The notes under the pieces: generated by a model
The model's database searches: none
Told to the model about the DNA's origin: nothing
What the model saw: only the letters and a program-made list of their open reading frames with translations
Assembly: GCF_001592435.1 (NCBI RefSeq)
Contig: NZ_CP014750.1
Coordinates: 992,001 to 1,056,000 of the forward strand
From: Thermococcus peptonophilus
Lineage (GTDB): Archaea > Methanobacteriota_B > Thermococci > Thermococcales > Thermococcaceae
DNA: 64,000 nt
Direction: 5' to 3'
Position numbers and translations under genes: made by a program
In this document: positions 30,811 to 61,608 of the stretch, piece by piece
Position numbering within the stretch: position 1 is the stretch's first letter
How the letters are laid out: each line of letters opens with the position of its first letter

Positions 30811-32021
<1,211 letters not shown>

Positions 32022-39827: not shown

Positions 39828-40348
39828 TCCACCTCCAGGAAGCGCCTTGCAAGATAATCAAGCTTTCTCCTGTTTTTGTACTTCCAATACGTGTTTCTGA
39901 ACCTGGAAGCCCAGAAACGCAGGGCCATCGGCTCCATTGAGAGCACGTAATCTTCAAGCTGTCCCCAGTCATTGGGATCTTTGAGGACTGACATGACAAC
40001 TCCATAAATCATGAGTCTCAGGTAGGCGTAGTCATCGCGCGTCTTAAGAACAATCCTCTTGCTTCCGCTGTACTCAAGCCGCTCCCTCTTTGACGGCGGA
40101 AGGTTCAGCCACTTGAGTAGGCTCTCATTGGCTTCCACCTTGAACCCCAGCTTCTTGGCAAAATTAAGAAATTCGGGAAGGTAAACCCTCGCCCGGGCCT
40201 CAACCTTCCCGGAAACCTTCTTTTGCTCTCCTTCCCCCGTCACATTGAACACAGGCATGAACTCCGCCAGCTTCTGCTCGCGGGTAACCGGCAGGAAAGC
40301 CTTCTTGATGTACTTAAGATTCACTTGGTACTCCACTGCTCCCTCCAT
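39818..40348 (-). CDS. DUF3780-type defence protein
   Basis: The 176-residue protein lies between the DUF499 ATPase and the helicase, the place held by DUF3780 in related defence clusters; the sequence (V-N-L-K-Y-I-K-K-A-F-L-P-V-T, R-A-R-V-Y-L-P-E-F-L-N-F-A-K-K-L-G, F-W-A-S-R-F-R-N-T-Y-W) agrees with my memory of that family but I cannot search it. It has no catalytic motif; a structural or DNA-binding part is possible. Its ATG shares one base with the DUF499 stop (TGATG), with GGAGGAG upstream. The R- and K-rich tail overlaps the helicase start. Confidence 0.7.
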   Translation of the reverse strand: MEGAVEYQVNLKYIKKAFLPVTREQKLAEFMPVFNVTGEGEQKKVSGKVEARARVYLPEFLNFAKKLGFKVEANESLLKWLNLPPSKRERLEYSGSKRIVLKTRDDYAYLRLMIYGVVMSVLKDPNDWGQLEDYVLSMEPMALRFWASRFRNTYWKYKNRRKLDYLARRFLEVEWI

Positions 40349-43734: not shown

Positions 43735-46700
43735 AACATTCCACCCCCAACGCTCCTCAGGAGCCTCCTCATGAGGAGAACCTCAAAGTGACCGTCCTTC
43801 TCAAGCTCGGCCTCAATCTTTCTCTCGTCAGCCTTCGCCTTCCCCCCAAGGGGCGTGAGAATCTGCCCGTAAACGGCCGCGTAGTAGTCGGAGATGAGCT
43901 TCGCCATCGTGAGGGCCTCCTCCACCTCGACGGCCCACCTCTTCCTGAGCCTCTCGATTTCCTCTTCGACCTTCGATCTTCCGAGGAGGGCGTAGTACTC
44001 AAGGAGCTGAAGAACGTCAATGCTGTTCCTCGGCTCTGGCTCCAGCGGGTTGAGGCCCTTCGCATAAAGGAACTTCTGGAACTCCTTTGGATCGAGGGCC
44101 TTCTTTCCAAGGGTGTCAACGCCGTAAAGCGTGAACTCCTTCTTGCTCTTTGAACCGGTCTCCTTCAGAACCCCAGCCTTCTTCAGCTCCTCCGGGCGGG
44201 TGAATGTGGCCAGGTTGAGAAGGATAATGTCATTGGCACTGAGCGTCCTGTTGCCGAAGAGAACCTTGTAGGCCGTGTAAAACACTCCCTCGTGTGAGTT
44301 CACGGTCTTTCCACCCTCAACCTCTGCAATTGCCTCAATAATGCCCCTTATGGTAGCTGGATAAACGTGGTCGTTGAGGACCCCCTTCGTTGAAAGTGGA
44401 CCCTTCGGCGAGAGGACTTCCGAGTATTTTGTAACATCCTCAAGCACAGCGGCCATGACGCCGTAGAGCAGGTCGAGGCCGTTGTAGCCGTACTTGATGA
44501 ACTCTTTTGCTGAGGCCTTCGCCTTCTCTTCCATCTCCCTCTTGAGGGTTGAGAGCTGGACGGGCTTCCTTTCTCCTGGGAGCTTCCTCCAGACGGCGAC
44601 GATTGAGGTGTCGAGGCTCAGCTTTCCTCTGCTTACAATGCTCGTCTCGGACTCGGTGTTAACCGGTATCGCCCTCGTTATCTGGAGCTTCGCCCTTCTC
44701 CAGCCAGCCTCGATGAGGTTCGCCCAGCTCTCCGGGTCGGTGTGGGCGTAGTAGGTGACGAGAATTCCATCATCCTTGAGATGTTCTCTCATGGCCACGA
44801 AGGCCTGGCTGAAGAGGTTCTCGAAGTGCTGGACAGCTTTCTCCTTTTTGTTTTCTTCATCCATAAAACGGCCTGGGTTTGTTGAAACCTCCTTCTTCGC
44901 GAACTCCCCCCACTGCGTCTTTATTTCGACCCACTTGGGGCCAATCTTCTTGAAGAACGCCCTCCTGTGGAACCTCGGGACGAGTTTGCCGTTCTCGACG
45001 TCGCTCAAAGCCCTCTTGAGCCAGACGTAGTAGAAGTCGGAAAGCTCCGTGTAGGGAACATCGTCAGCATAGGGTGGGTCGGTTACAATGACGTCGAACT
45101 TCTCGCCGAGGTTGAGCGAAGTTGCATCACCCTGGAGGACTTTGATGGAGTTGTCAGTGAAGTCCGCGAGGGTTTTCTGGGAGGAGGAAATGATTGAGGT
45201 GAGATAAGCAAGTCCCCTCAATATTGCAGGAAGTGTTTTAGTTACTCCTCCAAAATTACCAAACCATGGACTTTCCGTCCAATTCCAATTCATTGCGATT
45301 CCACGGGTGGACATTGTTTCTCCAATTTTCCACCAAGTGGAATCCCAACGAGTAACAACTGAATTGTAGTATGCGTATTTCAACATCGCCATGCTCAAAT
45401 ACGTCGTCACGGCCTCCGCGTACTCAAAGGCCCTCTCCTTACTCCAGCCCTCAGCAATCTTCTCCTCCTCGACCTTTTTGCCCACTTCCCTTATCAACCT
45501 TACAATCTTGACGAGGGTGAGGAGCTGGCGGGGGTTGAAATGTTTATCCCAAGTGGTAAGGCCCCAAGTTATTGTTTTTATGTCACCACCCATTCCCTTT
45601 GAACCCCAAGGAGCTACTGGTTCAGTCGGCACATCGGGGTCTCTCTTCTCAAGCATCTCCTTGACCTTCTCCTTCGCCTTCCAGAGCTTCTCGTTGTCTT
45701 CCTTTGTTGCAGGCTCGAAGGCCAAATCCTTATCCTTGACCTTCACCTTCACGAGCAGTCTCTGGCGAGCAAAGCGCTCGTCGCCCTCGTGGTACTTCCT
45801 CAGCGCGAACTTCACATAAAACTCGTTGTTGCCCTTAACCCTCTCCGTGTAGTGTCTTCCCTCCTCGTCGGCGTACTTGATCACGTTGCCGCAGGCAAGG
45901 CAGGTGAGCTGGCTCTTCCTGCTCTCGATGTTCGCGGAGGGAACCTTAAAGACTACTTCGTTCCCGCTTATCCTCACGTCGTCTTCCTTCAGCTTTCCGG
46001 CCCTTATCGCCTCCTCGACCTTCCTCACGTAGGCCTCGCCTTCAAAGGTAATCTCACCGTTCTTGGTGTCCACCTTCGCCTTCGAAACATCCCCAAGGAT
46101 TTCGTTGAGGTCAATCACCCTTATCTCGACCTCATCGCCGTTCCTTTCGGGCTTCATGTAGGCGAGCCGCTTGTAGCCCTTGCCGTCCTTAACGCGGGCG
46201 AGCCAGTAGTTGCCGATTGCCGGGGTCCACCGTCCACAGTGGGGGCACTTCACCTCCCAGGTGCCGATGTAAACGGCGACATCATCATCGTAAAGCTCCC
46301 TGATTTCGGGGTCGTTCTTGAGCTGCTCGGTTATCCAGTTGCTCCACCTCTCAACGTCCTTCACGAGGGGCTTCCCGAACTTCTTCGGGTAGTCGAGGAC
46401 GGCCTTGAGGAAGACGTAGGTAGTGGGCAGAAGCTCAACGGCGGTAACGTCCAATCCAAGGCGGAGGCCTTCGAGGGGTATTGAACCGAACCCGGCAAAC
46501 GGGTCGAGGAGCTTTTTGCCCCTGAAGTACTTCTCCCACTCTGGCGGAATCTTTGGATTAACGCGATGGGGAGTCTTTTCATTCAATCCGATCATGGTTT
46601 TGAAGCGGTTTTCATCAATATCCTCGGGCAGAAGCGCTCCGGCGATGACTGCCCTCGCTCCGATGAGGGGCTTCCTCGTCCAGTAGAAGACCATCTCCCA

Positions 46701-46793
46701 GTACGGGGGCCTTGCGGGACCTTTTTCTTTTGAACTCTTCAAATTAACCTCCCAGATTGGGAACCTGGGGCTTTCGATAAATCTCCTCTCCAT
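43731..46793 (-). CDS. DUF1156 adenine-specific DNA methyltransferase with Zn ribbons
   Basis: The 1020-residue protein starts M-E-R-R-F-I-E-S-P-R-F-P-I-W-E-V-N, the DUF1156 entry. The SAM-binding motif is D-P-F-A-G-F-G-S (97-104); the catalytic T-D-P-P-Y is at 571-575, so the methylase motifs are about 470 residues apart, in gamma/beta-like circular order. Between them lie C-P-H-C (183-186) and C-L-A-C (298-301), which suit a zinc ribbon. D-P-P-Y with N6-adenine specificity is typical of this group. An in-frame ATG 64 codons upstream (46985) would add a hydrophobic stretch and has no ribosome-binding site, so I prefer 46793. It is first in the operon and presumably marks self DNA. Confidence 0.9.
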   Translation of the reverse strand: MERRFIESPRFPIWEVNLKSSKEKGPARPPYWEMVFYWTRKPLIGARAVIAGALLPEDIDENRFKTMIGLNEKTPHRVNPKIPPEWEKYFRGKKLLDPFAGFGSIPLEGLRLGLDVTAVELLPTTYVFLKAVLDYPKKFGKPLVKDVERWSNWITEQLKNDPEIRELYDDDVAVYIGTWEVKCPHCGRWTPAIGNYWLARVKDGKGYKRLAYMKPERNGDEVEIRVIDLNEILGDVSKAKVDTKNGEITFEGEAYVRKVEEAIRAGKLKEDDVRISGNEVVFKVPSANIESRKSQLTCLACGNVIKYADEEGRHYTERVKGNNEFYVKFALRKYHEGDERFARQRLLVKVKVKDKDLAFEPATKEDNEKLWKAKEKVKEMLEKRDPDVPTEPVAPWGSKGMGGDIKTITWGLTTWDKHFNPRQLLTLVKIVRLIREVGKKVEEEKIAEGWSKERAFEYAEAVTTYLSMAMLKYAYYNSVVTRWDSTWWKIGETMSTRGIAMNWNWTESPWFGNFGGVTKTLPAILRGLAYLTSIISSSQKTLADFTDNSIKVLQGDATSLNLGEKFDVIVTDPPYADDVPYTELSDFYYVWLKRALSDVENGKLVPRFHRRAFFKKIGPKWVEIKTQWGEFAKKEVSTNPGRFMDEENKKEKAVQHFENLFSQAFVAMREHLKDDGILVTYYAHTDPESWANLIEAGWRRAKLQITRAIPVNTESETSIVSRGKLSLDTSIVAVWRKLPGERKPVQLSTLKREMEEKAKASAKEFIKYGYNGLDLLYGVMAAVLEDVTKYSEVLSPKGPLSTKGVLNDHVYPATIRGIIEAIAEVEGGKTVNSHEGVFYTAYKVLFGNRTLSANDIILLNLATFTRPEELKKAGVLKETGSKSKKEFTLYGVDTLGKKALDPKEFQKFLYAKGLNPLEPEPRNSIDVLQLLEYYALLGRSKVEEEIERLRKRWAVEVEEALTMAKLISDYYAAVYGQILTPLGGKAKADERKIEAELEKDGHFEVLLMRRLLRSVGGGML

Positions 46794-47039
46794 GTTGGTC
46801 ACACCCTTGGTGTTTAACACGGCCCGCAATAAATACCTTTTGATGATGGGCGATACATGGTGTAACGACCGAGGTCCAGCATAAAATTCATGAGGCGAAA
46901 TGCTTATTAAGGAAAGTGGCAGAGATAACATTGGTAATATTAACAACATTAACAAAACAAACTCTCTCGCCTGTTCCCCGTTCATGACCCCGGGATGGGG
47001 TGTGAAGGGGCGGCGGAGCAGGCGGTCTCTGGCGTCTTT

Positions 47040-50779: not shown

Positions 50780-51799
50780 ATGCTCCGTTGGAATACTGTA
50801 AAGGATGTTATTAATCACATCAAAACCACCCAGAATAAAATCCCAAACGAAGAATCCACAAAGCAACATTTGGTGCTACCGATTCTTATGGCTCTCGGCT
50901 GGGATGTCTTTGACCCAGATGAAGTTATGCCAGAGGAGAAAACTGGCGAAGGCCGGCCAGACTACGCTCTTAAGCTGAATGGCAAAACAGTCGCATTCCT
51001 TGAGGTGAAGAGTGTAAAGGAGTGGGTTCTGAGGGATGGCAAAATCCGTATGGGTTACCTCAGACAGCTTGCACGTTACTGTTTTGACCGCGGGGTCCGC
51101 GTGGGAATTCTTACAAATGGCCTCCAGTGGGTGATGATAAAATCATTTGAGCCAGAGAAAGACCTCGAAGAGCGTGTTATTCTCGCCGTTGATTTAAACG
51201 CGCAGGAGCCTTCACGGGCAGCCGAGAGATTAAGGTGGCTGTCAAAAGAGAAAATCAATCAATACAATGAAATTCCTGCGGAATACCGGAAAATACCTCT
51301 CCAGAAACCTCCAGCAGGCATCGAGCCGCCCCATCCAACAGGGGAGATGCACAAATCGAGCACAGGAACCACAAAGTTCAGAACATTGTACGTTACTGCT
51401 TGGGAAGTGGATTTACCGTCTTCTGCGATTGATGTTGACCAGCTGGTAGGGAAAGACCTCAGAGGATACGTTCCCTCCCGCCTCTTCGTAAACTTCAAAG
51501 GAAAATGGCATGAGGTTTCAATTTCTCACGCTGAAAACTGGCCGAGAGCAAGGATTGCGTGGAGTAGCATAACCGCGATGGCAGTAAGGTTCCTTTATGA
51601 TCAGGGCATCAGGGATTTCCCATACGTCGGAAAGTATCTCTCAAAGGAACCTCTTTCCATAAACATACAGTATACGGCAAAGATTGGTGATTGGTACCTT
51701 TATGGTCCTGAAGGTGGCAAGCAGGCTGTCGAAACGCTTCATAAACTCGCAAAACACACTGGTACAAAAATCGCGATTGAACTACAAAAGATCCGGTAA
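50780..51799 (+). CDS. Stand-alone HsdR-N-type (PD-(D/E)xK) nuclease
   Basis: Residues 1-150 match the N-terminal nuclease domain of type I restriction R subunits: E-E-S-T-K-Q-H-L-V-L-P-I-L-M-A-L-G-W-D, then G-R-P-D-Y-A-L (D61) and V-A-F-L-E-V-K-S (E75, K77), followed by R-Q-L-A-R-Y-C-F-D-R-G-V-R-V-G-I-L-T-N-G. No helicase follows; instead residues 185-339 form a second domain with S-T-G-T-T-K-F-R-T-L-Y-V-T-A-W-E-V-D and a small C-terminal part. Such stand-alone proteins occur in defence islands. ATG 50780 follows GGGGGAAG; the gene is 32 bases after its neighbour. A nuclease effector is the best guess. Confidence 0.75.
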   Translation: MLRWNTVKDVINHIKTTQNKIPNEESTKQHLVLPILMALGWDVFDPDEVMPEEKTGEGRPDYALKLNGKTVAFLEVKSVKEWVLRDGKIRMGYLRQLARYCFDRGVRVGILTNGLQWVMIKSFEPEKDLEERVILAVDLNAQEPSRAAERLRWLSKEKINQYNEIPAEYRKIPLQKPPAGIEPPHPTGEMHKSSTGTTKFRTLYVTAWEVDLPSSAIDVDQLVGKDLRGYVPSRLFVNFKGKWHEVSISHAENWPRARIAWSSITAMAVRFLYDQGIRDFPYVGKYLSKEPLSINIQYTAKIGDWYLYGPEGGKQAVETLHKLAKHTGTKIAIELQKIR

Positions 51800-52243
51800 C
51801 TACTCCAGCCGATGTTTTTCCTTCAGCCTTTTTCTCTCAACATCCATCAAGTAGAGTGCCACCATGTCAATTGGGTAATTGGAACGAACGAGCGCCCTTC
51901 GGACTCTTCCATTGTCTTCCTGAATCCGCCTGATTACAATTGGCTCCACAAAGTCCTCATCCTTGTAGATTGATTCCACATCCTCGAATTCATCATTGAG
52001 ATATTCTGCTACCTGCCGGATTTCCCGCGAAACAGTGCCCTTATGCACCTGAAGAATCCCCGAGAGGGCCGCAATGCAGAGTTCTGACTCCGTACAGGGA
52101 GCAGAACATTTGGAGCAGACTCCCCCGTTCTGTCGCAGATATTGTTTCCACTGAGGCGCATCCTCGAGTACGGTAAGATACCGAATGACCTTGTTGGCCT
52201 TTGGGGTCACCAGTATTCGCGGATTAATACGTTCTTTGGCCAT
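51800..52243 (-). CDS. Small protein with cysteine cluster and HTH-like segment
   Basis: From ATG 52243 (GGTGTG upstream) the 147-residue protein has a cysteine group C-S-K-C-S-A-P-C-T-E-S-E-L-C (C-x2-C-x3-C-x5-C), which could bind zinc or an Fe-S cluster. A helix-turn-helix-like stretch follows at once (I-A-A-L-S-G-I-L-Q-V-H-K-G-T-V-S-R-E-I-R-Q-V-A-E-Y-L). The C-terminal part is charged and helical. It looks like a metal- or redox-sensing DNA-binding protein. It lies beside the first copy of the repeated palindrome (52361) and could bind it, which is inference. The stop abuts the convergent HsdR-N gene. Confidence 0.6.
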   Translation of the reverse strand: MAKERINPRILVTPKANKVIRYLTVLEDAPQWKQYLRQNGGVCSKCSAPCTESELCIAALSGILQVHKGTVSREIRQVAEYLNDEFEDVESIYKDEDFVEPIVIRRIQEDNGRVRRALVRSNYPIDMVALYLMDVERKRLKEKHRLE

Positions 52244-52360
52244 CGGACACACCGTTTTTATGAGCCGTGGAAGTGGGTGGTTAAATATTTCGGTTACCTT
52301 CTCGGGGCAGCACGTTCGCGGGAGACTGCCAACCCGAGTATGTTCTTTTTTGTGCATCGT

Positions 52361-52388
52361 CTCGTGTAAACTTTTTGCTTTACACGAG
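52361..52388. repeat. Plasmid palindrome, copy 1
   Basis: Perfect 10-base arms CTCGTGTAAA / TTTACACGAG with an 8-base spacer. It lies just upstream of the cysteine-cluster HTH gene and is the leftmost copy. Confidence 0.85.
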
Positions 52389-52502
52389 GCTCAGTTGAGA
52401 AGCATGATAACACTCAGATGAACCAGGCGCCTACAACCAGAATGTTGATCTTACTCCCAGATACATACTGAATAACATGCTGTGCCCATTCTCAATGCTC
52501 AA

Positions 52503-52781
52503 TTATGTTCGTTGAATAACTGGCAACTGTAGATTAAACAGAAGAATTATTGAAACCAGGCATGCAAAAAGACGGTTTCTCCAGGCTTTTTTCACAGTTT
52601 TCAGGGTTTCGTTTGTGGCAACCCTCATGATTATGAGCAGCATTGTTGGGGTACAAAGGATAAAACCCCACCAGAGAATAAGATAAAAGGCTTTCCCACA
52701 CCAGACCAGTGCGCAGTTCTGTACTCTCATAAAATTTTGACTGCACTTGCCCAGTTGGAGTAACGGCGACCATAATCTCAC
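52503..52781 (-). CDS. Possible small membrane protein, 92 aa
   Basis: The frame from GTG 52781 has two hydrophobic stretches (F-Y-L-I-L-W-W-G-F-I-L-C-T-P-T-M-L-L-I-I-M and L-F-A-C-L-V-S-I-I-L-L-F-N-L) around a basic loop, as a real membrane protein would. I see no clear ribosome-binding site, and the N-terminal part looks non-coding, so a later start (M-R-V-Q-N-C) may apply. It sits between palindrome copies 1 and 2. Confidence 0.3.
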   Translation of the reverse strand: MRLWSPLLQLGKCSQNFMRVQNCALVWCGKAFYLILWWGFILCTPTMLLIIMRVATNETLKTVKKAWRNRLFACLVSIILLFNLQLPVIQRT

Positions 52782-52811
52782 AACAAAAGTTAATCACGTC
52801 GAGCTACTGTT

Positions 52812-52835
52812 CGTGTAAAGCATTCACTTTACACG
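52812..52835. repeat. Plasmid palindrome, copy 2
   Basis: CGTGTAAAG / CTTTACACG arms with a 6-base spacer, that is the common 8-base arms with an 8-base spacer plus one more pair. Confidence 0.85.
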
Positions 52836-53400
52836 GGGAGTTGAGAGATACCAGACATCCCAATGTACACAAATGGGCTCTCATTATTTATACGCCAGAA
52901 GCTTCGGCCATATACTACCAAAGGAGAACTTCCTCTCCCCTCCAGGCCCGCTGGAAAAGGACGAACTTTTTAAAAAAGCTGTTTTGAGTGGGTTTCCCAC
53001 TCTTTGGCTGGCTGGTGAAGGGTTTTGTGGTTTTTTCGTGGTTGAGCGGGTGGCGGGTGTTGGCGGGTTTTTTATGAGACTACGAGTTCTCACGGCCCAG
53101 ATGAGACTTTTTAATTTTCACCGTGTTTTTCCGCCGAAAACGGGCTTTTCCGGGCTTTTTTCACCTTTGCCTTCGGGGTGAATGTACATTGTTGCGATTT
53201 CGTGATTTGGAAAATCGGGTTTAAACGTAAGAATTAATGAAAATGAGCGGGTGAAAAGGAGCGTTCTCCGGGCTTCTTTTTAACTGTGATTTTCCAAAAT
53301 GAAAAATCGAGAGGGTGTTTTTGGGGTTCACGATTTCGCGTTACGGAAAATCGTGGGGTTGGTGGTTATGGAAGCAGCAACTGGCATGGATTCACTCACT
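52836..53400. other. Gene-poor stretch of the integrated plasmid
   Basis: I see no convincing gene. An open frame at 52873-53181 lacks a ribosome-binding site and has low-complexity, G/F-rich translation. A TATA-like TTATTTATAC lies at 52882-52891. Around 53190-53355 the element GATTTTCC/GGAAAATC occurs several times, including CACGATTT / AAATCGTG arms at 53322-53355. Confidence 0.4.
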
Positions 53401-53424
53401 CGTGTAAAGGACTTGGTTTACATG
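53401..53424. repeat. Plasmid palindrome, copy 3
   Basis: CGTGTAAA, 8-base spacer, TTTACATG; one mismatch in the right arm. It begins the longer direct repeat also found near 59241-59345. Confidence 0.7.
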
Positions 53425-53430
53425 CCCCCC

Positions 53431-53481
53431 ACCATCGGAGGGTCTCGTCTTTCTGGGTATTGTTCGGAGGGTCGTGTAAAG
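53431..53481 (+). repeat. 51-bp direct repeat, left copy
   Basis: ACCATCGGAGGGTCTCGTCT... through TCGTGTAAAG is repeated at 59295-59345 with about 43 of 51 bases the same by eye. The two copies bracket the replication genes. A weaker match to its middle lies inside the gene at 60086 (60248-60288). Confidence 0.65.
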
Positions 53482-53497
53482 AGCATTGGATTACATG
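53473..53497. repeat. Plasmid palindrome, copy 4
   Basis: CGTGTAAA, 9-base spacer, ATTACATG; two mismatches and one extra spacer base, so a worn copy. Confidence 0.55.
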
Positions 53498-53501
53498 TCC
53501 T

Positions 53502-53525
53502 CGTGTAAACGGATTGATTGACACG
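53502..53525. repeat. Plasmid palindrome, copy 5
   Basis: CGTGTAAA, 8-base spacer, TTGACACG; one mismatch. Confidence 0.7.
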
Positions 53526-53597
53526 GCGAACGAGGGCGAGAAACGCTTCCGAAGCATTACCATGAGGAGGAAAAGGTTGTTGGAAAACGGCACTTTG

Positions 53598-53621
53598 CGT
53601 GTAAACCTTTCCCTTTACACG
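53598..53621. repeat. Plasmid palindrome, copy 6
   Basis: Perfect CGTGTAAA / TTTACACG arms with spacer CCTTTCCC. Confidence 0.8.
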
Positions 53622-53950
53622 AGATCTCGCTCAGCGGGGAGCACATCATATAAGAAGCCGTTGTTTACTTCTCGGGGAACTCCGGAAGAGTACTCAACCC
53701 CTCTCATGGTGCGGGAATAAAAACAAGCCTACCCGAGCTGGGGGGTTGAGGGCTGGGGACGGGGATAAAAATCTGAGACAAGCACACCCTCAATCCCTCT
53801 CTCACCATATATGTAATCGTTATCGCTTTTTTGGAAATCCCGAGGTGTCCCTTCTCCCCCAGTCATGGTGCGGAATTAAGAATAAAAGCGAGCCCGTTAC
53901 TTATAAGAATTGAAAGATTCATGATCTCTTTGAGTTTTTGAGCTCATGAG

Positions 53951-54021
53951 TTGCCACGGTTGCCAGAGTTGCCAAGGTTGCTGAGGTTGTCGCAGTTGCC
54001 AAAGTTGTCGAGTTGTCCCAC
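53951..54021 (+). repeat. Eight tandem 9-bp iterons (TTGCCANRG)
   Basis: Eight units in head-to-tail order: TTGCCACGG, TTGCCAGAG, TTGCCAAGG, TTGCTGAGG, TTGTCGCAG, TTGCCAAAG, TTGTCGAG and TTGTCCCAC, each nine bases except the seventh (eight). Together with an inverted array at 54138-54171 this is the layout of an iteron-type replication origin, about 600 bases upstream of the primase-polymerase gene. Confidence 0.7.
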
Positions 54022-54137
54022 CAAAAACAACTCCTGCATAATCCCCTCGGAGATCCCTTATCCGTCGAAATAACCATTTCCCCGGACCTTCACCATATTC
54101 CCATTACTGACTCATGCCCCCCACTCTCGGAAAAGTG

Positions 54138-54171
54138 CTGGCAACCTTTGCAACCTTGGCAACCAGCAACC
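54138..54171 (-). repeat. Inverted iteron array (GGTTGCNAR on minus strand)
   Basis: Plus-strand units CTGGCAACC, TTTGCAACC, TTGGCAACC and AGCAACC are the reverse complement of the 53951 iterons. The 116 bases between the arrays are AT/C-rich (TCACCATATTCCC and similar) and could be the opening region. Confidence 0.65.
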
Positions 54172-54234
54172 GCCCGTTATATGGTGGGGAAAACCCGAGG
54201 TAATAAGTAGTGGAGTGCTCACACCCCAGCGGCT

Positions 54235-54258
54235 CGTGTCAATCAAAAGGTTTACACG
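54235..54258. repeat. Plasmid palindrome, copy 7
   Basis: CGTGTCAA, 8-base spacer, TTTACACG; one mismatch in the left arm. It lies about 100 bases before the 54341 gene, close to where its promoter should be. Confidence 0.75.
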
Positions 54259-54340
54259 AAGAAATTTACGGATAAATACGATGACACAGAGATATGTTTA
54301 TATTGTCGCATAATGGGGGCCCCTTTTGTGGTGTGGTATG

Positions 54341-54700
54341 ATGTTGGATGGAATGAATGCTTCAAGTATGGGTGTTCTGGCTCAGGCCAGGGTGGATGGT
54401 AAGGTCTGCAGGGAAAGACGAGGTAGTGCCAATAAAGTGCCATCCTCAATCTCCATCAACTTCTCACGAGAGGTGGAAAGCCTGGTAGGTGGTCTGATTT
54501 CAATGAACATCCTTCCAGTAAGTGCCTCAAGAGCCACCTTCGGCAGAGATGCGGTCGTGTTTGCTCTCGGAAGTTATGATGATGCAATCAGACTCTACGA
54601 GGATGTTGCGGACGGTCGTAGAGCTTACTCAGGCAAAGTGTTGAAGGTGGGGAATCTTGACCCGGTTTACTACAGTAGAACCGGGGGTGAAGCCAGATGA
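54341..54700 (+). CDS. Small plasmid protein upstream of the primase gene, 119 aa
   Basis: The protein, read from ATG 54341 (GGTGTGG upstream; ATG 54338 also possible), has no family I recognise. Residues 30-110 look alpha/beta: S-S-I-S-I-N-F-S-R-E-V-E-S-L-V-G-G-L-I, S-A-S-R-A-T-F-G-R-D-A-V-V-F-A-L-G and D-D-A-I-R-L-Y-E-D-V. Its stop overlaps the primase-polymerase start (ATGA), so all three genes to 59153 form one coupled operon. A role in replication control is plausible from this position only. Confidence 0.55.
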   Translation: MLDGMNASSMGVLAQARVDGKVCRERRGSANKVPSSISINFSREVESLVGGLISMNILPVSASRATFGRDAVVFALGSYDDAIRLYEDVADGRRAYSGKVLKVGNLDPVYYSRTGGEAR

Positions 54701-57441
54701 GTGAACTCACCCCGGGAAAAGTTCTCGCTGATGTTTACAAAGTTATCCAAGACCACCCGGAGGCTGGCAGGCTCGCGATTGAGCTGAGGTTCTACCCGGT
54801 GATTAAGTCCGAGTGGGTGCTCTTGAACGACATTGAGGACAAGGCTCGGGACATTGATAAGGTTCTGGCGAAGCAGAACCTCATTAAGGGGAAGGAAGCG
54901 TATGTGTCAATGGCGATCCACGGTTTTGAGGCGGTTAAGAAGAAGTTGGAGAAGCTCAGGGAGAGTGTTGAGGAGGGGAAGGTTCGCAAGCTCGGGCTTG
55001 AGAACGTGCAGGGCGAGGCGAAGGGGAAGGTTCACCCGACGGTGAGCAACTACACGCTTACGCTGGTCGTGGACGTGGACATTGAGGCAGTTCACAAGTT
55101 GAAGGTTGTTGAGGACGTTGATAAGGTGTTTGAGAAGGCGAAAGAGGGCTGGCTTGCCCTTAAGCCGGTGTTCGAGGAGCTTGGTGTGTTGCCGAGGTAT
55201 GTGTTCTTCACGGGAGGTGGTCTCCAGCTTTGGTTTGTTGCTCCCAAGCTTGAGGATATTGCGGTGATTGACAGGGCGTCAGGCATTGTTCCGAACGTGT
55301 TGAATGCTTTGCTTCCGGAGGGCTTCGTGGTGGACAATATTTTCGACAGGGCGAGGATTGTCAGGGCTCCGCTGACGGTGAACCACAAGTATAAGGCTCC
55401 GAACGGGGCTCGGGTTGGTGTTAAGGGCAGGCTCATTGAGTTCAATGACGTGAGAGTGTCCCTTTCAGAGGTCCTTGATAAGCTTGAGGTGTATGCAAAG
55501 GAGAGGGGTATTCAGTTGGGCGGTCAGGAGAAGGTGAGAGGCGGTCGTGGGTTCGTGAATGTCAGGTATGTGGTTAAGAAGGAAGAGCTGGAGACGTTGG
55601 CTCTCAATCTTGCCGATGAGCTTATTCCTTGGTTTAAGAAGGTCAAGGAGAGAGGCGGGTCTTGGCACCACTTGGTCAATGCCATCGGGGCTTACGTTGT
55701 GAGGAACACGAACCTCTCGCTTGAGGACCTTATTGGGAAGGACAACCCGGACGGCACTCACGTGGTCGGGCTTTGGGAGATTGTGTTCCAGAGGCTCGTG
55801 GAGAAGAGTGCAGAGGATCCGGGTGATTGGGTGAACAGGCGGAATACGATAAAGGACGTTTACGAGAAGCACATTGCAGGTAAGCCGCTCGGCACGAGGG
55901 CTTATCTCAAGAAGTATCTCCCGGTGAGCGATGAGGAGGTTGTTGAGATTTTAATGGCCGTCAGGAGGGCCTTACTACCGTTTTTGAAGGAGGTTAAGAA
56001 GGTTGACTCTTCGGGGTTTGGTGTTGCTCCTTATAAGAAGACGGCCCCAAGGAGCTGGGATGAGGTGGATGAGGACCGGAAGAGGGCTACGGGTCGCTGG
56101 TATGTGTGGAAGCTGGCGTTCAACACGGCGGAGTACCTTTTCACGGACGAGCTCCCCAAGGCGGGCACGTTTTACATTGATGTGTGGATGAAAGAGGGGA
56201 AGCGGGAGTGGATGAAGCGGTTTTTCAATGAGGCTCTCTTCAGGTCGTTCATTGAGGACGGGCTCGGCTACAAGTATGGTGCTCCAGTAGAGAGGGAAGA
56301 ACTCTTCGAGAGGCTCGTGGAAGTATTCAACATCACCGACGAGGAGGTAAGGGGGATTTACATTGACGCAGCCCTCTCGCTCCTCTCTCCAGTAGGCATG
56401 AGGACGCCACCGTGCATTGAGGAGTTCATAATGGAGTTCGCGGCAAACGGCAGTCTTTCAGAGGACAAGGTTCGCCACCTCGCCCGGTGGATTAAGTTGT
56501 ACGCCAAACCGCTCAAGCACTCGACAACTACGACAAAGCTGGTGGGTGCAGGGTATAAGGTAGATATGAGGATGGCGGTTTGGGCGAAGTTGGTCGAGTT
56601 CTTTGCAGAGGACGATGAGGTGGCCAGAGAGCTGGTGAGGGTCTTCAAGGAGGAGTATGGGGCGGCGGAGCCTCCGTTCACGTGCATTGGGACGAAGACT
56701 TGCCAGTTCTACCTTAATGAAAAAATGTGCCCGTTCATAATCCCAAAGGAGAAGGAAATACTCGCGGTGAGCCTCATTGACGTGCAGAGGCACGAGTCCG
56801 ACGGTCTCGTGGTTATTGTCGGTGGGGACAAGGAGGTCAGGACTTTCGTTAAGAAGGGGAATGTCGAGTGGGTGAAAAAGACAGAAAGGAGAGAGAAGTA
56901 TCCGGTTGCGGAGTGGTTCATTGATGTGTTCGCTACGGAGTATCTCAGTGTCTCCCCAGACGACCTCGACGTGGACTTGGAAGAGGTTACAGATATTTTG
57001 AAGAGTAGGGCGAGGGTGGTTAAGAGCCGGCTCAACGAGCTCGAAGACATGTATGAGAAGTTTGTCGAGTGGTTGAAGAGGGAGAATGCGGTAAGGGGTG
57101 TGCTCCCCTACGAGAAGGCGGACTTTAACCACTTGTTCATAAAGGGTAATATGATTGGTATTCCGCCAGCCCTCGCGGAAGAGTTCTACCGATTCGAGTT
57201 GAACATCAAGGGCTCAGAGTTCAGGGAGATGCTTGAGAAGAAGCTTGGTTTCCACTACACGAAGAAGGCCGTAAAGCTGAGTGTGGGTGAGAAGAAGGAC
57301 GTAAGGCGGTGTTATCTCGTAAGCTTGGAGTGGTTCAGGAAGGTGGTGGGAGAGCCGAATGTGAAGGATGTGGTCATGGCAGGTGATATTGCCCTCAGCG
57401 GGCTGGTCTATTATGAGAGCGGCGAGGAGGTGGTTGAATGA
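54697..57441 (+). CDS. pTN2-like primase-polymerase with PriL-type Fe-S domain
   Basis: The 914-residue protein has an archaeo-eukaryotic primase core at about 60-260: the metal-binding V-V-D-V-D (D126, D128), T-G-G-G-L-Q-L-W-F (172-180, in place of the usual s-G-x-G-x-H), and D-N-I-F-D-R-A-R-I-V-R-A-P-L-T. Four cysteines, C573, C663, C669 and C678 (P-P-C, then C-I-G-T-K-T-C and M-C-P-F), reproduce the Fe-S ligand pattern of the PriL C-terminal domain. The fusion and length agree with my memory of the pTN2 plasmid polymerase of T. nautili (a divergent primase of about 920 residues). It is coupled to the upstream gene and to the helicase by ATGA overlaps. It probably initiates plasmid replication. 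Confidence 0.85.
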   Translation: MSELTPGKVLADVYKVIQDHPEAGRLAIELRFYPVIKSEWVLLNDIEDKARDIDKVLAKQNLIKGKEAYVSMAIHGFEAVKKKLEKLRESVEEGKVRKLGLENVQGEAKGKVHPTVSNYTLTLVVDVDIEAVHKLKVVEDVDKVFEKAKEGWLALKPVFEELGVLPRYVFFTGGGLQLWFVAPKLEDIAVIDRASGIVPNVLNALLPEGFVVDNIFDRARIVRAPLTVNHKYKAPNGARVGVKGRLIEFNDVRVSLSEVLDKLEVYAKERGIQLGGQEKVRGGRGFVNVRYVVKKEELETLALNLADELIPWFKKVKERGGSWHHLVNAIGAYVVRNTNLSLEDLIGKDNPDGTHVVGLWEIVFQRLVEKSAEDPGDWVNRRNTIKDVYEKHIAGKPLGTRAYLKKYLPVSDEEVVEILMAVRRALLPFLKEVKKVDSSGFGVAPYKKTAPRSWDEVDEDRKRATGRWYVWKLAFNTAEYLFTDELPKAGTFYIDVWMKEGKREWMKRFFNEALFRSFIEDGLGYKYGAPVEREELFERLVEVFNITDEEVRGIYIDAALSLLSPVGMRTPPCIEEFIMEFAANGSLSEDKVRHLARWIKLYAKPLKHSTTTTKLVGAGYKVDMRMAVWAKLVEFFAEDDEVARELVRVFKEEYGAAEPPFTCIGTKTCQFYLNEKMCPFIIPKEKEILAVSLIDVQRHESDGLVVIVGGDKEVRTFVKKGNVEWVKKTERREKYPVAEWFIDVFATEYLSVSPDDLDVDLEEVTDILKSRARVVKSRLNELEDMYEKFVEWLKRENAVRGVLPYEKADFNHLFIKGNMIGIPPALAEEFYRFELNIKGSEFREMLEKKLGFHYTKKAVKLSVGEKKDVRRCYLVSLEWFRKVVGEPNVKDVVMAGDIALSGLVYYESGEEVVE

Positions 57442-59153
57442 CTGCCTCGGCTCTCCCTTCTACTCCGTATGTTGTCAAGATTTATGGCCCGCCAGGGACT
57501 GGCAAGACGAGAGCTCTTAAGAACCTTGTTGAGTGGATGACAGGAATTAATCCAGAGGTTAAGGAGGAACTGATGGAGAAGGGCTTTCCAGAGGAGTTCT
57601 TGGAAAGTGTGTTCGGGAAGTATGATGTTTCAGAGATTGCGTTCGTTACGTTCCAGAATTCAGCCCTTAAGGAGTTTGTCGAAGAGAGAATCAATATGAG
57701 CCTTGAGGAAGACAGGAGGGCCGGAAAGCCGTTGAGGTATTTCAGGACGGTGCACGGGCTTTGCCAGACGCTCCTTACAGATTTCGAGGTGAGCGATTGG
57801 AAGGTGGTTTCGAGGCGCATGGGTGGACTCGGCCCGGAGAGGTGGTTCCAGATTTTCGCGGCCCAGCAGAGGAAGAAGGACCCGAGCTTCAGGTTCGACC
57901 CGGACGCGATGGGGGCGGCGAACCCGTTTGAGAAGGCGAATTATCTCTGGCAGGTGAAGAGTAGGGTAATAAACAGAGAGTACCACAAACTCGAGGGAGA
58001 GAAGATTCATCTGAGGATTTTGGACGAGCTTCCACCGAGTTTGCACGACCATTATTTCGACTGGTTGATGTTCAAGAAGGAGAAGAGGATAAAGGACTTC
58101 GATGATATGCTGATGGACGCTTATGACGCCCTCAAGGCGGGAGAGATTTATCTCCCAACCAAAGTCCTCATCGTGGACGAGTTTCAGGATTTAAGCCCGC
58201 TCCAGTTCGAGATTTTCAAGATGTTGGCAAGGGATAAGGAGTTGGTAGTCATTGCAGGCGATGATTGGCAGACCATTTTCACATGGATGGGTGCAAGCCC
58301 AGAGTTCCTCATTAATTACCCAGCGGATCTGGAGCTTATGTTAAAGCGGACGTTCAGGTTGCCCGAGAGGGTGCTCAAAAAGGCTCTCAGTTATGCAAAG
58401 GAGAAGCTCAGAAACGGTGTTTACAAGGAGATGGTGAGCACAGGAAAGAGGGGTGCAGTAGGCGGCCTTTATCGGGTTTCGACGAAGAAAGAGGCCGACT
58501 TGGACTTGTTGGCAGGGGTAATCATTGGCGAGTTGAAGAGAGGTCACTCGGTCTTTGTTCTCACGAGGACGAATGCTCAGGCGTTGCACTTTTTCGGCGA
58601 ACTTTACAAGAGGGGGTTCAAGCCGAAGACCCTTAAGAGGTCTTCCCGATGGAAGAAAAGAGTCTCAAAGGTTGGGGATTTCTTTGACGTGATCCATTCA
58701 ATTATTGAGGTAGAAAGCGGGTCCCCAACGAGGGAGGATTTCAAGAGAGTGGCGTGGGTTACAGGTCTTATCTCAGAAGAGGAGTTCGACGAAGACTTGC
58801 CGCTCGTAGAGTATATCAGACCTAATTGGAAGGGGAATATTCAGTTGGATAAAGTTCAGGAGATTTGGGGCAGATTGGCGAAGCGGTTCCTTGAGAAGAT
58901 CATCAATGACGGCATAAAGCCGATGGAGGGCATTCCAGAGGATTACGAGCTTTACGTGGACACAATCCACGCCAGTAAGGGTCGTGAAGCGGATGTAGTG
59001 TTCCTCATTAATGAGATGCCCACCCGGAACTGGAGAAAGTATCTCCGGACGCCAGAGGAGGTCGAAGCGGAAGCTCGCGTATGGTTCGTGGGAATGACGA
59101 GAGCCCGGAAGGGGTTACTTATTATCAACACGGACAAGCCGTTCACTCTTTGA
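57438..59153 (+). CDS. SF1 (UvrD/Rep-like) plasmid helicase
   Basis: The 571-residue helicase has Walker A G-P-P-G-T-G-K-T (17-24), motif II V-D-E-F-Q-D, motif III G-D-D-W-Q-T-I-F-T-W, R-T-F-R-L-P (motif IV region), H-A-S-K-G-R-E-A-D (motif V) and V-G-M-T-R-A-R-K (motif VI). It is shorter than bacterial UvrD, with reduced 1B/2B domains. pTN2-family plasmids pair such a helicase with the primase-polymerase. The ATG lies inside the primase stop (ATGA). Confidence 0.9.
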   Translation: MTASALPSTPYVVKIYGPPGTGKTRALKNLVEWMTGINPEVKEELMEKGFPEEFLESVFGKYDVSEIAFVTFQNSALKEFVEERINMSLEEDRRAGKPLRYFRTVHGLCQTLLTDFEVSDWKVVSRRMGGLGPERWFQIFAAQQRKKDPSFRFDPDAMGAANPFEKANYLWQVKSRVINREYHKLEGEKIHLRILDELPPSLHDHYFDWLMFKKEKRIKDFDDMLMDAYDALKAGEIYLPTKVLIVDEFQDLSPLQFEIFKMLARDKELVVIAGDDWQTIFTWMGASPEFLINYPADLELMLKRTFRLPERVLKKALSYAKEKLRNGVYKEMVSTGKRGAVGGLYRVSTKKEADLDLLAGVIIGELKRGHSVFVLTRTNAQALHFFGELYKRGFKPKTLKRSSRWKKRVSKVGDFFDVIHSIIEVESGSPTREDFKRVAWVTGLISEEEFDEDLPLVEYIRPNWKGNIQLDKVQEIWGRLAKRFLEKIINDGIKPMEGIPEDYELYVDTIHASKGREADVVFLINEMPTRNWRKYLRTPEEVEAEARVWFVGMTRARKGLLIINTDKPFTL

Positions 59154-59201
59154 TCTTTTCTCTCGCGTTTTGTCCCGATTCTCCCACCCCTATGGGGATT
59201 G

Positions 59202-59225
59202 CGTGTAAAGGCAAACGTTTACACG
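59202..59225. repeat. Plasmid palindrome, copy 8
   Basis: Perfect CGTGTAAA / TTTACACG arms with spacer GGCAAACG, about 50 bases after the helicase stop. Confidence 0.8.
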
Positions 59226-59240
59226 TGTACTGGCACGGTT

Positions 59241-59264
59241 CGTGTCAATCGATTGGTTTACACG
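59241..59264. repeat. Plasmid palindrome, copy 9
   Basis: CGTGTCAA, 8-base spacer TCGATTGG, TTTACACG; one mismatch. Confidence 0.75.
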
Positions 59265-59294
59265 CAGGAGTGTTATTTTCTCTCCCCCAGGAGC

Positions 59295-59345
59295 ACCATC
59301 GGATGGCATCGTTTTTCTGTGCATTGTCCGGAGGCTCGTGTAAAG
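59295..59345 (+). repeat. 51-bp direct repeat, right copy
   Basis: It matches 53431-53481 as described there, and both copies end in the left arm of a palindrome. The pair encloses the iterons and the three-gene replication operon. Confidence 0.65.
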
Positions 59346-59360
59346 GCACTGGTTGACACG
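59337..59360. repeat. Plasmid palindrome, copy 10
   Basis: CGTGTAAA, spacer GGCACTGG, TTGACACG; one mismatch. Confidence 0.75.
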
Positions 59361-59516
59361 ATCGCCTCTCCCTGCACCCTCTCCAGTGGAATTAAAGGTT
59401 TTGGTGGCTGAGAATTAACCGTAAATTTTTTAAACGTAAATTTTCATAATATTTAATGCCCGCAACATACGCGGGTGTGTTCGAAAAGGGGAAAAGAGAA
59501 GAGGAGAAAGAACGCG

Positions 59517-59705
59517 TCACTTTACGAACCGACTGATGTCGGGCATCTCCTCGTGGACGGCCCTCTGCATGTAACCCCTCCGCACAGGACCAGCAGCTCC
59601 GGTCCTCACGCGGACGTGCGCCGTCCTGAGGGGCATCTCCTCTGGGGCGAGAAGCCCCATTGCAAACTCGGAGAGTTTGGTTGCACGGTCTCGTAGCCAC
59701 CTCAT
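59517..59705 (-). CDS. Small basic protein, 62 aa
   Basis: GGAGGT lies eight bases before the ATG. The product is rich in arginine (M-R-W-L-R-D-R-A-T-K-L; R-T-A-H-V-R-V-R) with one likely helix at the start. There is no known family and no cysteine cluster. It is transcribed leftward, opposite to the replication operon, and is followed by a short stem CCCGC / GCGGG (59459-59475) that may terminate it. It might be a nucleic-acid-binding accessory protein. Confidence 0.5.
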   Translation of the reverse strand: MRWLRDRATKLSEFAMGLLAPEEMPLRTAHVRVRTGAAGPVRRGYMQRAVHEEMPDISRFVK

Positions 59706-60085
59706 CTTGTCCGACCTCCTTTTTTATTTGCTTCTTCTTCAAAAGAGCCACTTGTTCTGCAAGTCATCGCAAGGGAGTTAAAGGTTTCGATGTGAGGGCC
59801 CTCGTGTAAAGCAATTGGTTTACACGAGTGGGTGTTTACTCGGGCCCGCCGGGAGCTCCCGCCCGATATGCTCGGCAGCTCTTAAGTGTCGAAAATAACT
59901 TTAACCGTAAATTGTTTGACGAAAAACACTCACAATTTTTGACGGGTCTCACGAAAAGCAGGGGGACTCATGAAAACCCCTTGTCAAAATGACGAATGGT
60001 TTGCCTTTTTTGCCCTTTGAGTTATATTTTATTACCCTACCCACTTGTTCCCACTGGAAAAAACGAACGTGGGGGGTGCTGTTGC
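59706..60085. other. Non-coding stretch with palindrome copy 11 and promoter
   Basis: I see no gene here. TTAACCGTAAATT occurs at 59901-59913 and again at 59418-59430, and TTATATTTTATTACC (60022-60036) could serve as the TATA element for the gene at 60086. Confidence 0.5.
59801..59828. repeat. Plasmid palindrome, copy 11
   Basis: Perfect 10-base arms CTCGTGTAAA / TTTACACGAG with spacer GCAATTGG. With copy 1 it is one of two full-length copies, and these are the outermost ones. Confidence 0.85.
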
Positions 60086-60340
60086 ATGCAGGTAGTCAGG
60101 ATCGGGGACCTTACTCAAATGTCCAAGGATGTCGGCAGGATAATGACCCTCAAGTTTATGGACAATTCCGGGAAGAAGTACGAGGCTGTGGTCTTGCTCG
60201 CTGATGAGGAGACAAAGGGCGTTCTCTTGAAGAACGTGGACGAGGGCACTCTCGGTGGGCCTCGTCCTCTCAGGGTATTGTTCGGAAGAAGAAAAAAGAA
60301 CTCGATGGAAGTTATATTTCCCTGGCGGTTTTCCCGATGA
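60086..60340 (+). CDS. Small hypothetical plasmid protein, 84 aa
   Basis: The protein begins M-Q-V-V-R-I-G-D-L-T-Q-M-S-K-D-V-G-R-I-M-T-L-K-F, followed by Y-E-A-V-V-L-L-A-D-E-E-T-K-G-V-L-L, which looks like a small beta-barrel. GGGGGGTG is seven bases upstream. Its 3' part (P-R-P-L-R-V-L-F-G-R-R) is encoded by sequence resembling the 51-bp repeats at 53431 and 59295, so those may be fragments of gene copies. The end overlaps the convergent wHTH gene by 29 bases. Confidence 0.5.
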   Translation: MQVVRIGDLTQMSKDVGRIMTLKFMDNSGKKYEAVVLLADEETKGVLLKNVDEGTLGGPRPLRVLFGRRKKNSMEVIFPWRFSR

Positions 60341-60680
60341 GGGCCAGGGTTTTCTCCAGCATCACTGTCAGCTTTCGAGTAAATTCGTCGCTGAGGATGA
60401 ACGAGCCTTCTTTCCCACGTCCGAGAATACCGAGGGCAAGGAGCTTCTTCAAGGTCCGGTAGTAGTTCTTCTTCTCAGCGGGGCTTTTGTTTGGGCAGAA
60501 GAGAACCCAATCGCTGGGCCAGAGCCGGCCGTTCTCCTTGATATGGGCAATGATTTGCTCGGCAATCTCGGCCTCTTTTGGAGTGAGTAGAACCTCAAGG
60601 ATTGGTTTCTCGTAGAGTTCCACGATGTCTTTGGGGATTTGAATGTTTACGTGGTCCGGGAGCTTTGCCCTTCGGCCCAT
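60312..60680 (-). CDS. Winged-helix DNA-binding protein, 122 aa
   Basis: From ATG 60680 (GGTGGTCCC upstream) the protein has V-L-L-T-P-K-E-A-E-I-A-E-Q-I-I-A-H-I-K, then K-N-Y-Y-R-T-L-K-K-L-L-A-L-G-I-L-G-R-G-K-E-G-S-F-I-L-S-D-E-F, a recognition helix and wing. It starts with a basic R-R-A-K-L segment. The ATG lies 34 bases downstream of the duplicated TATA/inverted-repeat region (60714-60730), so autoregulation is likely. It may be the copy-control or maintenance regulator of the integrated plasmid. Confidence 0.65.
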   Translation of the reverse strand: MGRRAKLPDHVNIQIPKDIVELYEKPILEVLLTPKEAEIAEQIIAHIKENGRLWPSDWVLFCPNKSPAEKKNYYRTLKKLLALGILGRGKEGSFILSDEFTRKLTVMLEKTLALIGKTAREI

Positions 60681-60713
60681 TGGGACCACCTTTTCAGGTT
60701 TGTTACCTCTTTG

Positions 60714-60730
60714 GGTGTATTATATACCTG
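60714..60730 (-). promoter_or_regulatory. TATA/operator half, promoter of the wHTH gene
   Basis: GGTGTATTATATACCTG contains TATATA and is the reverse complement (one difference) of CAGGTATATAACACACC at 60869-60885. On the minus strand it lies at promoter distance from ATG 60680. Confidence 0.6.
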
Positions 60731-60868
60731 TGTGAGTATATAAGTGTTGCTGAGTGGTTGGTTTTGGGTGAGGTGTAGGTACCTGTGTGGGTAGATATTG
60801 GGGGGTGTATGCGGTTTGGGGTAGCTCATTGACCAAAGCCAATCCAAAAAGAATTTTTTCCACCCCAA

Positions 60869-60885
60869 CAGGTATATAACACACC
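60869..60885 (+). promoter_or_regulatory. Second TATA/operator half, facing right
   Basis: It mirrors the 60714-60730 element, with 138 bases between. Copies of CTGTGTG/GGTGTAGGTACCTGTG lie between them. No rightward gene follows directly; the next gene (60925) is convergent, so this may drive a short RNA or be only a binding site. Confidence 0.5.
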
Positions 60886-60924
60886 AAACCACAACAAAAT
60901 GGAGAAGAACGAAAAATGAACCTT

Positions 60925-61608
60925 TCACTTCCCAAGGTAGTCCTGAAGCTCTTGTGCTTTGATCGAGATTGCTGCCCCGTACTCGTCAAAGTTCACAGAC
61001 TTCACGACTGTGAAGGTAATTTCCCCCTTTTCGAGTTTGATGTCAAAGACCCTGCTCGCAATCTCCCTCAGCTCTTGAACACACTCTTCACTGATGACAC
61101 GAGTATTAACGAAAATAATCCCCCAACTCTTCTCATGCCCAATCATGGGACGAGAAACAGTGCCGAGTAAGACTTCAAGGTCCCAAGGGCTCTTGGCCAT
61201 TCTCAAAAGCTTGTCCATCCCCAATCCAACCCTGACAAAGTACTCGTGCTCATTCGCAAGTTGTTCGAGAGTTTTGTGGTACTTGGTTCTCATAACGGCA
61301 GGATCTTCAGTAAGATCGATCTTCCCAAGAACGTTTCTGTCACTTATGATGCCGCCAATTTTTATCACTCTCGCCTCATCGATCAGATCGGTTGGAACTC
61401 CCGCGAACTTCAAGTGGTTCCTGAACATGTGAAGATGGTCCAGCACATCCAAGATAACTACTGGGATGTTCTCTCTCTTTAAGTACCTCAAGATCATATG
61501 TAAGATTAAGTGAATTGGCTCGTCCGAAGTGTACTCAACGAGAACTACCTCGCCCCGCTGGATTGTCTTGAGGTACTCGCCAAGACTCAACTCGAACTTC
61601 TCTGACAT
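60925..61608 (-). CDS. DUF257 family protein
   Basis: The 227-residue protein matches the Thermococcales-specific DUF257 family, a RecA/KaiC-like alpha/beta fold without a Walker A: G-E-V-V-L-V-E-Y-T-S-D-E-P-I-H-L-I, I-P-V-V-I-L-D-V-L-D, V-I-K-I-G-G and W-G-I-I-F-V-N-T-R-V-I. No activity is known. ATG 61608 follows GGGGAGAG; an in-frame start at 61668 lacks a signal. It marks the return to chromosomal sequence, although DUF257 genes also lie near mobile regions. Confidence 0.8.
   Translation of the reverse strand: MSEKFELSLGEYLKTIQRGEVVLVEYTSDEPIHLILHMILRYLKRENIPVVILDVLDHLHMFRNHLKFAGVPTDLIDEARVIKIGGIISDRNVLGKIDLTEDPAVMRTKYHKTLEQLANEHEYFVRVGLGMDKLLRMAKSPWDLEVLLGTVSRPMIGHEKSWGIIFVNTRVISEECVQELREIASRVFDIKLEKGEITFTVVKSVNFDEYGAAISIKAQELQDYLGK

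Follow-up and report, generated by a model that had tools for sequence, protein, structure and literature searches.

Why do short palindromes flank the replication genes of a plasmid-like element, and which protein might recognize them? The question is raised by the window, by which we mean the whole 64,000-nucleotide stretch analyzed here (Thermococcus peptonophilus, a Thermococcus-type genome, G000; contig C1, 992001-1056000), in which a pTN2-type replicon is integrated between a defense island and the chromosomal core. A preliminary description of this DNA had reported eleven copies of a palindrome of constant spacing around the replication operon of this element. Searching the window for the motif CGTGTMAA-N8-TTKACACG (CGTGTAAA-N8-TTTACACG; ≤3 mismatches allowed) returned 10 copies, five of them exact and five differing at one position, usually as the C/A variant CGTGTCAA; together with one degenerate copy they span 52363-59826. 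The array is real, with 0.12 matches expected by chance and no shuffle reaching 10. Counted from the CG, the copies start at 52363, 52812, 53401, 53473, 53502, 53598, 54235, 59202, 59241, 59337 and 59803; the positions reported earlier agree overall, except that 52361 and 59801 count an extra CT. Constant spacing is true of 10 of the 11, because copy 4 (53473-53497) has a 9-bp spacer (N9), along with two mismatches in its right arm. Spacers had been said to end often in TTGG, which is so in four of 11 (a fifth ends in CTGG), and the outermost two, copy 1 (52361-52388) and copy 11 (59801-59828), do have perfect 10-bp arms. The symmetrized consensus is (Y)(T)CGTGT(A/C)AA, in which G2-T5 and A7-A8 are invariant or nearly so and the spacer varies.

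None of the 11 copies, to which no strand is assigned, lies within a credible gene, as the preliminary description had it, and random placement in an element that is ∼67% coding would leave all copies non-coding with a probability of ∼5 × 10−6. Clustering on both sides of the operon was likewise borne out: copies 1 to 7 (copy 2, 52812-52835; copy 3, 53401-53424; copy 5, 53502-53525; copy 6, 53598-53621; copy 7, 54235-54258) lie between the gene of a cysteine-cluster helix-turn-helix (HTH) protein and the replication operon, and copies 8 to 11 (copy 8, 59202-59225; copy 9, 59241-59264; copy 10, 59337-59360) lie downstream of the helicase gene. A genome-wide search, proposed in the same description, showed the array to be limited to the element, with just two further places in the rest of the 1.9-Mb genome (three mismatches each). 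Among 61 genomes of the genus, a pattern search found the motif in two, this one and G004. A pattern scan of GTDB returned seven single matches in unrelated bacteria, which is the chance level, matches in viral contigs (phage and IMG/VR) were single copies without clusters, and an Rfam search of 51500-61200 found no RNA family. That the array arose by chance, or that it is a chromosomal repeat with no tie to the element, is next to impossible given 10 copies against 0.12 expected, no good match elsewhere in the genome, and the presence of the motif around the operon of G004. A partial repeat of ∼40 bp (CACCATCGGAGGGTCTCGTC..GGTATTGTTCGGAGG) also occurs in the window in three copies, of which those at 53430-53472 and 59294-59336 stand directly 5' of palindromes and that at 60250-60290 lies inside a small open reading frame (ORF).

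The answer that we favor, with confidence just above even, is that the palindromes are predicted binding sites of the element's own cysteine-cluster winged-helix protein (51800-52243, minus strand; 147 amino acids), the product of the HTH gene, which would act as an element-wide regulator. This reading draws on comparison of sequences, namely an array confined to the element, a protein family whose genes have palindrome-bearing upstream regions, and the covariation of protein and palindrome; we infer binding, dimerization, metal or iron-sulfur (Fe-S) binding by the cysteines, and the regulatory outcome. As a dimer, the protein would bind palindromes in its own upstream region and set its own level, and it would also bind copies across the non-coding DNA flanking the replication operon and so control plasmid activity, the most likely outcome being repression or setting of replication-operon transcription and replication. 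The arrangement fits such a regulator, with copies around the putative origin and the operon and copy 7 ∼35 bp upstream of where the TATA box of the operon probably lies; copy 1 lies 117 bp upstream of the start of the HTH gene.

In the family alignment, C43, C50, E54, C56 and R105 are invariant, and the window protein fits both the C..C..E.C pattern and the recognition-helix region. The family is rare and seen on mobile elements only, with seven genes found. Weak matches led to plasmid pTBMP1 of Thermococcus barophilus as well as to a contig from genome G089, the latter fetched for its distant primase-polymerase; further tblastn searches led to a T. profundus plasmid and to ECE1 of Methanocaldococcus jannaschii, and a genome search to a Pyrococcus-type chromosomal locus (G065). 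An unusually good palindrome was present within ∼120 bp upstream of all seven family genes (shuffle P from 0 to 0.04 each). ECE1, pTBMP1, the T. profundus plasmid and the G065 locus had been chosen by protein alone, before their palindromes were seen, and in each of them a palindrome lies just upstream of the family gene.

Arrays of at least 10 dispersed copies occur in three separate lineages, each with its own sequence: the element described here, contig C12 of G089, and ECE1. The M. jannaschii element carries 11 copies of TGAATTGA-N8-TCAATTCA (palindrome TGAATTGACTTTRAAGTCAATTCA; ECE1 1-50000), all intergenic by the PLSDB gene table and many upstream of genes, with one copy adjoining the TATA box of the HTH gene. 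The G089 contig, a circle of 28,590 bp with a terminal overlap of 127 bp, holds 10 copies of TCRGTATG-N8-CATACYGA, one just upstream of the TATA box of its HTH gene and several 10 to 60 bp before gene starts; six exact-pattern copies are the only exact matches among 94 genomes. Both elements thus resemble the one in the window in having 10 or 11 dispersed 24-bp palindromes and the same rare HTH protein with a promoter palindrome, and differ from it in arm sequence and gene content, although G089 has a distant primase-polymerase and helicase in common with it. The only proteins that G089 and ECE1 have in common are the HTH protein and a generic methylase. The G089 contig also carries large membrane-type proteins beside its pTN2-like primase-polymerase and helicase, and a second palindrome of GGTTGCAT-N6-ATGCAACC type is found next to two of its sites.

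Similar proteins come with similar palindromes. The pTBMP1 palindrome CGAATTGCTTTTAAAGCAATTCG resembles TGAATTGACTTTAAAGTCAATTCA of ECE1, and their proteins are 42% identical; AGTATTCCGTTCGGAATACT of G065 resembles TCAGTATGCTGATCGGCATACTGA of G089, and their proteins are 50% identical. No multi-copy palindrome was found in eight pTN2/pEXT9a-type plasmids without a detected family protein. Comparison supports the link, first suggested in the preliminary description, between the array and the cysteine-cluster HTH protein adjoining copy 1, since its relatives' promoters carry palindromes of their own. The second binder named there, a winged-helix-like protein (60312-60680, minus strand), was rejected: it is widespread without the motif, being encoded in 27 of 94 family genomes as against two of 61 genus genomes with the palindrome, and its own promoter carries different repeats.

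Several observations weigh against the cysteine-cluster protein as an element-wide regulator. The window protein is only 19 to 30% identical to distant family members, winged-helix profile matches are weak (the match to the ArsR-type winged helix 2p4w has E = 0.0011), and the single-sequence structure model was unusable (mean predicted local distance difference test score [pLDDT], 38.7). Most window copies lie away from recognizable promoters, with copy 1 ∼75 bp upstream of the HTH gene's probable TATA box and copies 8 to 10 behind the operon. Arrays are not obligatory for the family, because the protein is accompanied by only one to a few palindromes in pTBMP1, the T. profundus plasmid and G065, and the association between presence of the protein and presence of an array, taken alone over three independent multi-copy lineages, is borderline.

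The same protein could serve plasmid partition, which the preliminary description had listed as a possible role together with copy control and silencing. On the Sulfolobus plasmid pNOB8, AspA, a winged-helix protein, recognizes a 23-bp palindrome located 5' of the aspA gene and spreads along the DNA (PMC5120986), and the copies in the window might by analogy be centromere-like sites where binding of the array by the cysteine-cluster HTH protein would load a segregation complex. We consider this unlikely, even though the sites are concentrated in the non-coding DNA near the putative origin and not at promoters, and the ParA gene of ECE1 has a palindrome about 170 bp upstream. Neither ParA nor ParB was found among the scanned ORFs of the element; the HTH gene here shares no operon with partition genes and has an HSDR_N-type gene as its neighbor; an aspA gene overlapping parB and parA, the mark of AspA-ParBA, was not seen; and the position of the G089 copies shortly before gene starts suits operators better. 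The two systems are alike in a plasmid winged-helix protein with a palindrome of ∼23 bp upstream of its gene, and differ in that many dispersed copies stand here in place of one nucleation site with spreading, and in the cysteine cluster. Another parallel is the stoperators of L5-type mycobacteriophages, where a mobile-element repressor has more than 20 sites dispersed along the genome in promoters and short intergenic spaces (PMC9283540); those sites are 13-bp, asymmetric and oriented, whereas the ones described here are 24- to 28-bp palindromes in an archaeal plasmid and are not stoperators in that sense.

A further question is whether the palindromes are part of the replication machinery. 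The operon comprises a small protein (54338-54700, plus strand), a pTN2-type primase-polymerase (54697-57441, plus strand; 914 amino acids; 52 to 59% identity to those of pTN2, pP12-1 and pCIR10) and a superfamily 1 (SF1) UvrD/Rep-type helicase (57438-59153, plus strand; 571 amino acids; Pfam UvrD-helicase, 5 × 10−23; 64 to 72% identity to pTN2-family helicases), the identities of the latter two holding over nearly full length. The primase-polymerase had no match in phages or viral contigs; a protein scan of genome contigs gave no match, though a genome search did show relatives. Upstream of the operon, a 9-bp iteron array of GTTGCCAAG type (53950-54012, plus strand) and opposed 9-bp repeats of GGCAACCTT type (54140-54166, minus strand) form, judging by repeat layout, the two halves of a putative replication origin. 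The layout is like that of pP12-1, comparable arrays are carried by pTN2 and pCIR10 upstream of their replication operons, and the origin of this plasmid family has been placed in the non-coding region upstream of the operon (PMC3543421). The palindromes are judged not to be the origin repeats, because the separate 9-bp arrays, common to pTN2-like plasmids, occupy the published origin region and would mark the likely origin. The idea that the primase-polymerase or helicase binds the palindromes directly, as iterons or as sites of replication control, is very improbable: copies do flank the operon and the putative origin, but the plasmids with such similar replication proteins lack the motif and have the 9-bp arrays, another candidate origin motif, in common with this element. 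The preliminary description had suggested a search of pTN2-family plasmids, and it came up empty in pTN2, pP12-1 and pCIR10 despite the common replication operon. These plasmids (PMC3543421) thus share with the element the operon of primase-polymerase and SF1 helicase, the large upstream non-coding region and the 9-bp arrays; they differ in having no palindrome, in that the cysteine-cluster HTH protein was not found on them, and in that the element here is integrated.

The small protein at the head of the operon occupies the position of the ribbon-helix-helix (RHH) gene of pTN2-like plasmids, and the palindromes might be its operators, as Orf56 represses the replication operon of pRN1. Copy 7 lies just upstream of its promoter, and both protein and palindrome were clearly found only here and in G004. 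The fold itself finds no support in Pfam (no match for the protein) and the structure model was unusable (pLDDT, 34.9), no homologue was found in G089 or ECE1, both of which have palindrome arrays, and one operator would be enough for such a role; we judge this reading highly improbable. The pRN1 Orf56/Orf904 operon (PMC3543421, PMC4234260) is similar in placing a small regulator gene ahead of a primase-polymerase gene; Orf56 is an RHH protein, whereas the binder proposed here is a cysteine-cluster winged helix encoded outside the operon.

Comparison with G004 added a further property of the palindromes. In that genome the motif surrounds a homologous operon (primase-polymerase 86% identical; DNA ∼93% identical), and orthologous palindromes keep their position and mostly their spacer: the spacer of copy 1 is the same, degenerate copy 4 is kept, and copies 8 and 9 are identical. 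The non-coding DNA at 52390-54230 (∼1.9 kb; no Rfam match) is ∼93% conserved with G004. Differences between the two are mainly in non-coding DNA, and many end at palindromes. Homology runs precisely to the right edge of copy 1 (52386) and is picked up again at the left edge of copy 2 (52812-52813). The putative origin lies in a segment (53502-54258) that has opposite orientations in window and G004, with copy 5 at its left end, copy 6 within it and copy 7 at its right end; both junctions fall within palindromes, and the sequence places the crossover inside the shared CGTGTAAAC. The left flank of copy 10 equals that of G004 site 24446 and its right flank resembles that of G004 site 24552, a pattern that would be expected from deletion between direct copies. 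Overall, five of 11 alignment-block ends lie on palindromes (simple binomial, P = 0.0023). The coincidence is good but not decisive, because BLAST alignments may run on into palindromes that resemble one another and so sharpen the pattern. The inverted origin segment with both junctions in palindromes, together with the mark of a deletion, suggests that the palindromes are also points of rearrangement, by chance or by site-specific recombination. Neither these breakpoints nor the separate 9-bp iterons at the likely origin had been noticed in the preliminary description. One outlying palindrome of G004, at 31698, lies a few base pairs upstream of a TATA-like sequence that precedes a gene of 127 amino acids.

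Could the palindromes, then, be recombination sites, comparable with the pdif sites of Acinetobacter dif modules in having two bound arms and a variable spacer? The inversion and deletion junctions and the exact block ends described above point that way, as does the 28-bp unit of arms and spacer in the outermost copies, which is the size of archaeal dif (PMC2958812). Both are inverted repeats with a short spacer, several to a plasmid, at the boundaries of rearrangements; the spacer here is 8-bp and variable, and the window element encodes no recombinase, while that of G004 has one of 393 amino acids. The two tyrosine recombinases of the genome are far off (a presumable XerA at 238 kb and one of 407 amino acids at 1165 kb), and the latter is not closely related to that of G004. 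Spacers are also unequal between the recombined copies, and tyrosine recombinases normally reject differing spacers. Moreover, any non-coding repeat can become a breakpoint, and the palindromes of G089 and ECE1 are nearly full, without a variable spacer. On balance, dedicated recombination sites seem quite unlikely. It is also worth noting that the archaeal integrase Int-pTN3 is known to invert DNA where short homologies, about 100 bp long, are present (PMC5495485), whereas the palindromes here are shorter, at 24 bp. A combined role, with the sites both operators of a master regulator and true recombination sites at which the plasmid flips its origin segment and swaps modules, would give archaea an equivalent of dif modules, with a recombination partner that is new; we hold this to be very unlikely.

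Returning to the proposed cysteine-cluster regulator, its parts have known parallels in the dispersed operators of phage repressors, the AspA palindrome and dif sites. What appears new is a plasmid-borne family of cysteine-cluster winged-helix proteins with element-specific palindrome arrays, common to elements of Thermococcales and Methanocaldococcus, and the coincidence of such sites with rearrangement junctions around an origin; no description of such palindrome arrays was found in the open-access literature searched. Plasmid regulation in hyperthermophilic archaea is poorly known, and the comparison suggests a family whose palindrome code is particular to each element. Protein-site pairs that can be tested are at hand in ECE1, pTBMP1, G089, G065 and the element described here, and the exact match of junction and site gives a way into the question of how the origin region is shuffled in such plasmids.

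The surroundings of the element were compared with two other genomes. In G012, the tRNA-His region and the core corresponding to 61785 are only a few kilobases apart and flank a few local genes, because of which window 34822-61785 is taken as an island. The window showed no second copy of a tRNA-His direct repeat that could have served integration. In G004, a 55-bp direct repeat of the tRNA-His 3' end (C1, 6809-6863 and 37458-37512) bounds a 30.7-kb integrated element with the sister replicon, and a tyrosine integrase lies beside the second copy. Elsewhere in G004 (C1, 53578-53682), a remnant comprising the last 35 codons of the HTH gene stands beside the same HSDR_N gene that adjoins the HTH gene in the window, which suggests that G004 once had the element at that place too. 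Other small proteins of the window had no convincing match in pTN2-like plasmids, although no search was aimed at the conserved coiled-coil/winged-HTH "gene 3" and other accessory genes of those plasmids. The defense island (36825-46985) has a DrmD/HmaA-like helicase, a DUF499/HmaC-like ATPase and an HmaB/DUF1156-type methylase, resembling the Hma system (PADLOC), and its G004 counterpart is at 73 to 84% DNA identity. Beyond the element, the gene for the DNA polymerase II large subunit at 63637 is uninterrupted; the DNA polymerase II gene of G012 (C1, near 1718494) carries an intein-like insertion between ..AAKRRNC and CDGDEDAV...

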